Shown here one piece after another: positions 16,292 through 23,549 of a stretch of DNA of 64,000 nt. The notes beneath the pieces are model-generated. The model saw only the letters and a list, made by a program, of their open reading frames with translations, had not been told where the DNA came from and ran no database searches. Position 1 is the stretch's first letter. The number at the start of each line of letters is the position of its first letter. Source of the stretch: Deltaproteobacteria bacterium (GTDB lineage: Bacteria > Myxococcota_A > UBA9160 > UBA6930). Location: contig VGRF01000008.1 of assembly GCA_016875395.1 (NCBI GenBank), positions 1-64,000 of the forward strand. The letters run 5' to 3'. The position numbers and the translations under genes were made by a program.

Positions 16292-16367
16292 TGGCAGGTG
16301 CGGAGGGACTCGAACCCCCAACCTCCGGATTTGGAGTCCGGTGCACTACCAATTGTGCTACGCACCT
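16292..16367 (-). tRNA. tRNA-Trp (anticodon CCA)
   Basis: A 76-base cloverleaf with acceptor AGGTGCG / CGCACCT, discriminator G and an encoded CCA end. The anticodon loop CTCCAAA carries CCA. The T arm contains GGTTCGAGTCC. It lies between tufB and secE, the common bacterial arrangement. Confidence 0.97.
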
Positions 16368-16396
16368 AATAACTGAGCACGCCTCTCGCGCTGCGA

Positions 16397-17587
<1,191 letters not shown>

Positions 17588-17648
17588 CTCGCGTCGTCCT
17601 TCTTTGCTTTGGAGTGAGTGGGTGTGTCGAGTTGTTAGGGCGGGGAAC

Positions 17649-17724
17649 TGGAGCTCACGACCGGGATCGAACCGGTGACCTCGTCCTTACCAAGGACGTG
17701 CTCTACCGACTGAGCTACGTGAGC
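17649..17724 (-). tRNA. tRNA-Thr (anticodon GGU)
   Basis: The 76-base sequence has acceptor arms GCTCACG / CGTGAGC, discriminator U and encoded CCA. The anticodon is GGT within CTTGGTAAG. It is the thrT position directly before tufB. Confidence 0.97.
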
Positions 17725-17743
17725 GTCTCATCCCTCGCGTGAT

Positions 17744-17820
17744 TGGAGCGGGAAACGGGATTCGAACCCGCGACCCCAAGCTTGGAAGGCTTGTGCTCTA
17801 GCCAGCTGAGCTATTCCCGC
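17744..17820 (-). tRNA. tRNA-Gly (anticodon UCC)
   Basis: The 77-base sequence has acceptor arms GCGGGAA and TTCCCGC, an encoded CCA end and anticodon TCC in the loop of CCTTCCAAG. It is the glyT position in the tRNA-tufB cluster. Confidence 0.97.
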
Positions 17821-17882
17821 GGTTCACCGTTTTCCGCTGGATTCCAGCGTCGGTGCGGCGTTCGTTCGGTTCGCTGCGCGAG

Positions 17883-17968
17883 TGGTGGAGAGGGGAGGAT
17901 TCGAACCTCCGAAGGCGTGAGCCAGCAGATTTACAGTCTGCCCCGTTTGGCCGCTTCGGTACCTCTCC
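17883..17968 (-). tRNA. tRNA-Tyr (anticodon GUA)
   Basis: An 86-base class II tRNA with a long variable arm (TGGCTCACGCCTTCGGA region), acceptor GGAGAGG / CCTCTCC, discriminator A, encoded CCA, and anticodon GTA inside CTGTAAATC. It is the tyrU position. Confidence 0.97.
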
Positions 17969-18325
17969 GCTCGGACTCGACGCACGCCGCCGGGCAGCGC
18001 GCCGCTCCTTCTCGATCTCCCTGTGGTTGACTTGTTAGGCCGGGAGACCCGAAGAGCAACAGAAAAGGAACGGCAGGAACCGCCGATTCGCACGAGTGAC
18101 GAATCCGACCCCCGCCTCACGCCTTCACCGCTGCGCTTCGCGACCGCCTCGAGCCGAAAATCCTGTTTGTGTTCGGTTTGTTGCGCGCCGGCTTGCGATC
18201 TCTCGAAAGCCATTGCCGAAGGGGCGCCGACTGTAGCGGCCGATTTCCGGGGCGCGCCTCCCTGCGTCGACTTTTTGACGACTTCGTCGGCTTCCGTGGA
18301 GAGCCCAGGACGAAGTCGGCCCGGC
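17969..18325 (-). other. Long spacer between tRNA-Thr(UGU) and tRNA-Tyr
   Basis: These 357 bases hold no supportable gene, although the other tRNA genes in this cluster are only 20-60 bases apart. Visible elements are a 10-bp perfect stem (CGACTTCGTC at 18279-18288 with GACGAAGTCG at 18309-18318) just after tRNA-Thr, an AAAAA stretch next to it, and a TGTTAGG motif at 18033-18039. The stem could act in processing or attenuation. I could not find a convincing second promoter. Confidence 0.4.
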
Positions 18326-18401
18326 TGGAGCTGGCGAGGGGACTTGAACCCCTAACCTGTCGATTACAAATCGACTGCTCTGCCAGTTGAGCTACGCCAG
18401 C
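18326..18401 (-). tRNA. tRNA-Thr (anticodon UGU)
   Basis: The 76-base sequence has acceptor arms GCTGGCG / CGCCAGC, discriminator U and encoded CCA. The anticodon is TGT in GATTTGTAATC. It is the first RNA of the cluster, about 10 bases after the predicted transcription start. Confidence 0.97.
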
Positions 18402-21314: not shown

Positions 21315-21400
21315 GCCCGAGTGGCGAAATGGCAGACGCGGGGGACTTAAAATCCCCTGGCCGCAAGGTCATGCAGGTTCGAGTCCTGCCTCGGGCACCA
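21315..21400 (+). tRNA. tRNA-Leu (anticodon UAA)
   Basis: An 86-base class II tRNA with acceptor GCCCGAG / CTCGGGC, discriminator A, encoded CCA, long variable arm and anticodon TAA in GACTTAAAATC. It reads the very rare codon UUA. A deletion scar starts only 26 bases after its 3' end. Confidence 0.97.
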
Positions 21401-22958: not shown

Positions 22959-23021
22959 GGGCCGCCACTAGTCCCTGATCCCGCGCTGCGTCATCTTGCC
23001 CATCACTTCGGAGGAATCGCC

Positions 23022-23549
23022 GTGACCACGATGTCCCCGCGCATCGTCCTCGATCCCACCAGCGAGCGCGCTCCCGCGCAGCGCCAGCGCCTGCCGCGCC
23101 TTGCGACACTGGACGGTGTCACGATCGGGCTGCTGGACATCTCGAAGCCACGCGGCGACCTGTTCCTGAACCGCCTCGAAGAGCGCCTCACGCACGCCGG
23201 CGCGCGCGTGAAGCGATACAAGAAGCCGACCTTCACGAAGCCCGCACCCGTGGATCTGCGCCACCAGATCGCGAGCGAGTGCGGCGCGGTGATCGAGGCA
23301 CTGGCCGATTGAGGCAGCTGCACGTCGTGCAGTGTGCACGACATCAGCGATCTGGAGCTGCGTGGCCTCCCCGGCGTGTTCGTCGCCACGGTCGAGTTCG
23401 AGGACGGCGCGATCGCGCAGGCGAAGGCGCTCGGCGCCGACACCGCCGCGGTCTACACCGAGCACCCGATCCAGGACCGGACCGACGCGGAGATGCTCGC
23501 GATCGCCGATCGCGCGTACGAGGCGGTGGTGAAGCAGCTCACGCGCTAG
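23022..23549 (+). CDS. UGSC-family selenoprotein (in-frame TGA read as Sec)
   Basis: Two frames, 23022-23312 and 23334-23549, are in the same phase and separated only by a TGA at 23310-23312. Read through, they give one 175-residue protein with the motif U97-G-S-C100-T-S-C103-S-V-H-D, the hallmark of the UGSC family, whose members carry either Cys or selenocysteine at the first position. Conserved-looking sequence continues on both sides: VTIGLLDISKPRGDLFL before, and DLELRGLPGVFVATVEFEDG after. The GTG start at 23022 follows GGAGGA by six bases; an ATG lies three codons later. The biochemical role of this family is not known to me. The motif suggests redox chemistry. Confidence 0.85.
23310..23342 (+). 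promoter_or_regulatory. Sec codon UGA with bacterial SECIS-like hairpin
   Basis: The UGA (23310-23312) is followed after 11 bases by a perfect 7-bp stem GTCGTGC (23324-23330) / GCACGAC (23336-23342) with loop AGUGU. The loop has G at its second position and lies about 18 bases after the UGA. Bacterial SECIS elements recognised by SelB are hairpins right after the UGA with a G among the first two loop bases, so both features fit. Confidence 0.75.

Follow-up and report, generated by a model that had tools for sequence, protein, structure and literature searches.

Results

A UGSC-family gene interrupted by a single TGA

The stretch of DNA analysed here (the window; 64,000 nucleotides on contig C8 of a 4.5 Mb, 96% complete deltaproteobacterial genome, G000) contains on its forward strand, at positions 23022-23549, a frame broken by one in-frame TGA, raising the question of whether this codon ends a short protein or encodes selenocysteine (Sec), and, in the latter case, what the resulting selenoprotein might do. 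The frame opens with a GTG at 23022, with a Shine-Dalgarno-like GGAGG (23010-23014, +) 7 nt upstream, and closes with a TAG at 23547-23549. The TGA at 23310-23312 (+), codon 97, is its sole internal stop; translated as U, it gives a 175-residue product containing ALADUGSCTSCSVHD, in which Sec97 is the first residue of U-G-S-C-T-S-C. The initial annotation had described two same-phase frames split by a lone TGA, with a 175-residue product carrying UGSCTSCSVHD, all of which can be read directly from the sequence. It had also warned that standard gene callers split such genes; indeed, an ordinary ORF listing of the region returned two unconnected ORFs, of 96 and 71 aa.

The fused translation falls in the UGSC family, as had been proposed, scoring 139.9 bits against the Pfam UGSC model (PF24696; curated cut-off 25) and 144 bits against the NCBIfam model UGSC_fam (NF041046; curated cut-off 125). 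The U97-G98-S99-C100 motif was invariant or nearly so in 54 aligned members. The earlier suggestion that the first motif position is occupied by either Cys or Sec also held, with TGA found there in nearly all relatives and TGC or TGT in the Cys forms. The window protein resembles the described family ("UGSC-containing protein", PMC2398784) over the whole domain, in the motif, and in being a Sec form with a SECIS element; it shows no essential difference from that family, and its partner gene (see below) is unlinked in the window's clade. The gene itself offers little novelty, being a new member of a family that is already known, though uncharacterised.

A UGSC gene with an in-frame TGA also occurs on plasmid p2-T1 of Acidovorax sp. 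T1 (NZ_CP021650.1, 70020-70520; locus L198, 8001-8501), with a SECIS-like hairpin and an adjoining partner-like frame; the annotation there shows no more than a truncated hypothetical protein of 96 aa. Standard gene callers thus cut UGSC genes both in the window and on an annotated plasmid.

Decoding of the in-frame UGA

The initial annotation had pointed to the Sec genes of the host as the place to look, and all were present in the same genome: tRNA-Sec with anticodon UCA (71.3 bits, and also called by ARAGORN), selA (514.9 bits), selB (282 bits; cut-off 242) and selD (261.7 bits). The window itself carries tRNA genes for Trp, Thr, Gly, Tyr and Thr (16292-18401, -) and for Leu(TAA) (21315-21400, +). 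The last of these gave a weak tRNA-Sec score but is an ordinary tRNA-Leu.

The interrupting codon is widely conserved. UGSC genes were found in 44 of 61 related genomes, with exactly one TGA in nearly all full-length copies and zero in-frame stops in the few Cys-form copies, and none of the homologues among these relatives truly ends before the motif. Among 80 named loci fetched via the partner gene, 73 had a UGSC match, nearly all with TGA (several of the UGSC-less loci lie at contig ends), and the UGSC loci span Deltaproteobacteria/Myxococcota, Actinomycetota, Alpha-, Beta- and Gammaproteobacteria, Chloroflexi and Acidobacteriota; in locus L196 the Sec-codon position is TGC. A search for a phage homologue of UGSC found none, and a promoter and terminator scan of the UGSC locus was empty.

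In two Geodermatophilaceae, Blastococcus massiliensis (L137) and Geodermatophilus obscurus (L150), the Sec codon reads TAG and the hairpin is unchanged. UAG-encoded Sec in UGSC proteins of this family of bacteria is noted in a passage of PMC5330540, which cites earlier work; these genes share the protein family, the position and the hairpin with the window gene and differ in using UAG rather than UGA. The presence of TAG at this codon, in agreement with the known recoding, provides independent support for Sec here.

Folding, combined with a comparison of 126 Sec loci, placed a bacterial SECIS hairpin with an 8-bp stem, GTCGTGCA-GTG-TGCACGAC, at 23324-23342 (+). Counting from the U of UGA, nt 23 and 24 fall in its apical loop and are G and U, respectively, which is the position of the G and U contacted by SelB in E. 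coli fdhF. Folded as a single sequence, the hairpin region did not stand out from shuffles of matching base composition (z = -0.96), and the case for the hairpin therefore rests on comparison. Of the 1008 base-pair cells in the 126 distinct Sec loci, 959 held standard pairs, as compared to 605.5 +/- 17.7 expected if every codon is drawn afresh from its synonyms according to background usage. All 8 pairs together with a GU loop were present in 91 loci (0.5 expected), and the loop GU was retained in 124. The loop codon (nt 22-24) was AGT in all 112 loci encoding Ser there and in 0 of 8 Cys forms, while AGT makes up 6.6% of the serine codons used by the partner genes; the hairpin as a whole was weaker in the Cys relatives than in the Sec loci. 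In 9 loci pair 21-27 is G-C instead of C-G, the codon concerned having changed from TGC (Cys) to TGG (Trp). Judging from these sequence comparisons, the hairpin is most likely the element that directs Sec decoding by the host SelA, SelB, SelD and tRNA-Sec.

These observations bear on the alternative that the TGA is a real stop, arising from a nonsense mutation, pseudogene formation or sequencing error, so that the 96-residue N-terminal fragment alone is made. The codon is formally an in-frame stop, but over 120 distinct loci share TGA at this position, with both the coding sequence and the SECIS conserved downstream; it is replaced by TAG in organisms that use UAG for Sec, and the Sec machinery of the host is complete. 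Profile scores above the cut-offs and the conservation of the TGA across homologues rule out chance or sequencing error, and conservation together with the machinery excludes an artefact or pseudogene, leaving the truncated product a negligible probability. The UGA at 23310-23312 is almost certainly decoded as Sec, making the window gene, as predicted from its sequence, a selenoprotein gene.

An obligate partner of UGSC

Clustering of neighbouring ORFs revealed one gene family beside UGSC. In the subgroup to which the window protein belongs, this partner is about 480 residues long and consists of an N-terminal thioredoxin-like domain followed by a core of ~350 residues, whereas in most other UGSC subgroups it is the core without thioredoxin. 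The thioredoxin domain is recognisable from its predicted structure and its thioredoxin matches in Foldseek, and CPTC is present in 17 of 17 such domains. Two cysteines of the core, C208 and C306, are near-invariant. No model in Pfam or NCBIfam covers the core, and a profile search against PDB sequences returned nothing; against PDB structures, a good match was obtained for the thioredoxin domain only, with no recognised fold or cofactor for the core. A resemblance of the core to class I fumarase (E about 7e-3, TM about 0.2) was judged not meaningful, and homology of the partner to GrdE or to UGSC itself was rejected (hhalign probability at most 1.3%).

Across 284 genomes of the phylum, UGSC and the partner were present in an identical set of 48, disregarding an additional UGSC match that scored below the cut-off. 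In the set of relatives, the partner was found in 44 of the 44 UGSC-bearing genomes (hypergeometric 8e-14, ignoring relatedness), and in the lone partner-only genome the best partner match is cut at a contig end. The genomes behind these counts are not phylogenetically independent, and relatedness inflates the significance. That UGSC occurs so strictly together with a single partner speaks for a dedicated complex. The two genes lie side by side in 67 of 73 loci, a 4-nt overlap was seen in 28 of 36 cases, and in locus L072 (1-1422) a Sec-containing UGSC is fused to the partner core in one frame. A separate second UGSC gene directly follows this fusion, so that the locus has a single partner but two UGSC domains. 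In Global Ocean Sampling data, a UGSC-fused domain termed Unknown_1 was previously described (PMC2398784); the UGSC-partner fusion seen here suggests that Unknown_1 may be the same family as the partner.

The linkage is not universal, since in the window's clade (G000, G004 and G009) the partner is present but does not adjoin UGSC; in the host genome it lies outside the window, at C5:4005-5444. Four further loci (L136, L154, L171 and L190) contain a thioredoxin-domain partner with no recognisable UGSC in the flanking sequence examined, and these partners may be unlinked from UGSC as in the window's clade. The partner also adjoins Cys-UGSC genes on plasmids of haloarchaea, Arthrobacter and Variovorax, showing that the association holds across domains of life.

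In two of the Cys-UGSC clusters (Arthrobacter and Variovorax), trxB or trxB-trxA lies near the partner and UGSC. Other neighbours of Cys-UGSC genes encode CoA transferases, lyases, and tricarboxylate or TRAP transporter proteins, which hint at small-acid catabolism; no neighbour was constant enough across the Cys-UGSC loci to name a substrate. Phosphosulfolactate synthase-like genes occur within about 3 kb of Cys-UGSC in Natrinema (L197, 5488-5955) and Arthrobacter (L200, 4678-5466), a possible link to sulfonate chemistry.

Relationship to GrdB and PrdB

The GrdF and GrdB models matched 40 and 39 of 54 UGSC proteins, respectively (best E 1.4e-5), and the PrdB model matched 7. In hhalign, UGSC aligned over ~68 columns with a PrdB-like/GrdB profile built from proteins of related genomes, with the Sec in register (93.1% probability, P 3.2e-7), while reversed or column-shuffled controls reached at most 0.6%. 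The likeness is to the C-terminal Sec domain of GrdB/GrdF/GrdH, the selenoprotein B of glycine, sarcosine and betaine reductase (PF07355), and of PrdB of D-proline reductase; common to both sides are the arrangement strand-UxxC(xxC)-helix-LExxGIP...HPxG and a link to thioredoxin. The UxxCxxC pattern described for GrdB (PMC13188914) is also found in UGSC proteins of the window's subgroup. A common origin of UGSC and the GrdB/PrdB Sec domain is therefore probable.

UGSC is nevertheless not a GrdB. It lacks the N-terminal part of GrdB and forms a single domain, and the window protein scores far below the cut-offs of the full-length families (16.1 bits against 800 for GrdF and 13.8 against 602 for GrdB). 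No pyruvoyl GrdE/PrdA was found with UGSC, in a PF09338 search that gave no match in the host genome and none in the control set either; the partner of UGSC is unrelated to GrdE. No GrdB relative was found among PDB sequences.

The host genome contains a second likely Sec gene, which is PrdB-like (C2:320155-320556, -; L224) and has an in-frame TGA followed by a strong hairpin with loop GUG, and the motif UPLD. Many short PrdB-like genes with UPxC motifs are present in related genomes. When compared with loci L204 and L205-L223, the Pfam GRDB model PF07355 ends just upstream of the Sec, apparently because the database proteins were truncated at the UGA.

Predicted fold

The structural model of UGSC (pLDDT 94.6) comprises five beta-alpha units in a flavodoxin-like arrangement; Sec97 lies where strand 3 (89-95) gives way to helix 98-113. 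Its PDB matches were lumazine synthase, a NagZ domain, the flavodoxin-like domain of catalase and the MCR activation complex, with TM at most about 0.6; these matches indicate the fold class only, which is predicted to be flavodoxin-like alpha/beta. In the literature, UGSC has been described as likely Trx-like (PMC2398784) and listed among selenoproteins of Trx-like fold (PMC13188914). No thioredoxin appeared among the best 50 PDB matches of the model, and a thioredoxin fold was rejected on the basis of the differing predicted topology. The predicted flavodoxin-like topology therefore questions the thioredoxin fold assumed in the literature.

Discussion

The initial annotation had taken the Cys-rich motif as a hint of redox or metal chemistry. 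The redox part of this proposal fits the UxxCxxC pattern, the thioredoxin-fused partner and the trxA/trxB neighbours, but nothing was found that points to metal binding. On balance we favour, with moderate confidence, a role for the true Sec-UGSC protein as the catalytic selenol subunit of a thioredoxin-driven, GrdB/PrdB-like two-protein reductase. In the glycine reductase complex, which is thioredoxin-driven, GrdB binds glycine and releases NH3 (PMC13188914), and a GrdB-like operon has been put forward as responsible for breaking the C-F bond in fluoroacetate (PMC10838667).

The complex formation, electron path and reaction type that we infer for UGSC and its partner would be as follows. Electrons would flow from NADPH through thioredoxin reductase to the partner-fused CPTC thioredoxin domain, and from there to the UxxC(xxC) site of UGSC, where Sec97 would stand at the start of a helix in the flavodoxin-like domain, with Cys100 and Cys103 as the putative resolving thiols. 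The substrate would be held with the partner core (C208/C306) and acted on by Sec97 of UGSC. By homology to GrdB/PrdB, the selenolate would probably attack its target reductively, the target being a polarised C-X bond or a similar reducible group.

Alternatively, UGSC and its partner could form a substrate-specific enzyme, for example an isomerase, lyase or transferase, in which the Sec or Cys serves as a covalent nucleophile without net reduction and thioredoxin just keeps the selenol reduced. The catabolic look of the Cys-UGSC neighbourhoods, the near-invariant C208 and C306 of the partner core, and the modelled position of the Sec at a strand-helix junction, which would suit a nucleophile, are all compatible with such an enzyme. 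We nonetheless consider it rather unlikely, since the GrdB/PrdB homologues belong to reductive enzymes, and since the trxB-trxA genes in the cluster and the partner-fused thioredoxin suggest a stoichiometric supply of electrons. More doubtful still is a general redox role for UGSC as a stand-alone thioredoxin-like thiol:disulfide oxidoreductase, a role that the UxxC motif and the published Trx-like description (PMC2398784) and listing (PMC13188914) would favour: the model, at pLDDT 94.6, is without Trx topology and found no thioredoxin in its 50 best PDB matches, homology leads to GrdB/PrdB, and the strict co-occurrence is with one partner.

Extending the preferred reading of a thioredoxin-driven two-protein reductase, we tentatively suggest that UGSC and its partner may represent a new class of selenoreductases, spread over many bacterial phyla and with Cys forms in haloarchaea, that would use a GrdB/PrdB-type selenol without a pyruvoyl subunit, bind the substrate in the C208/C306 core, and reduce a small carboxylic or CoA-linked substrate; this we hold as possible, with less confidence than the reductase role itself. 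Given the obligate partner with its thioredoxin domain, the nearby trxA/trxB genes and the link to GrdB/PrdB, this abundant family of orphan selenoproteins can now be approached as a two-protein enzyme whose function is open to testing.
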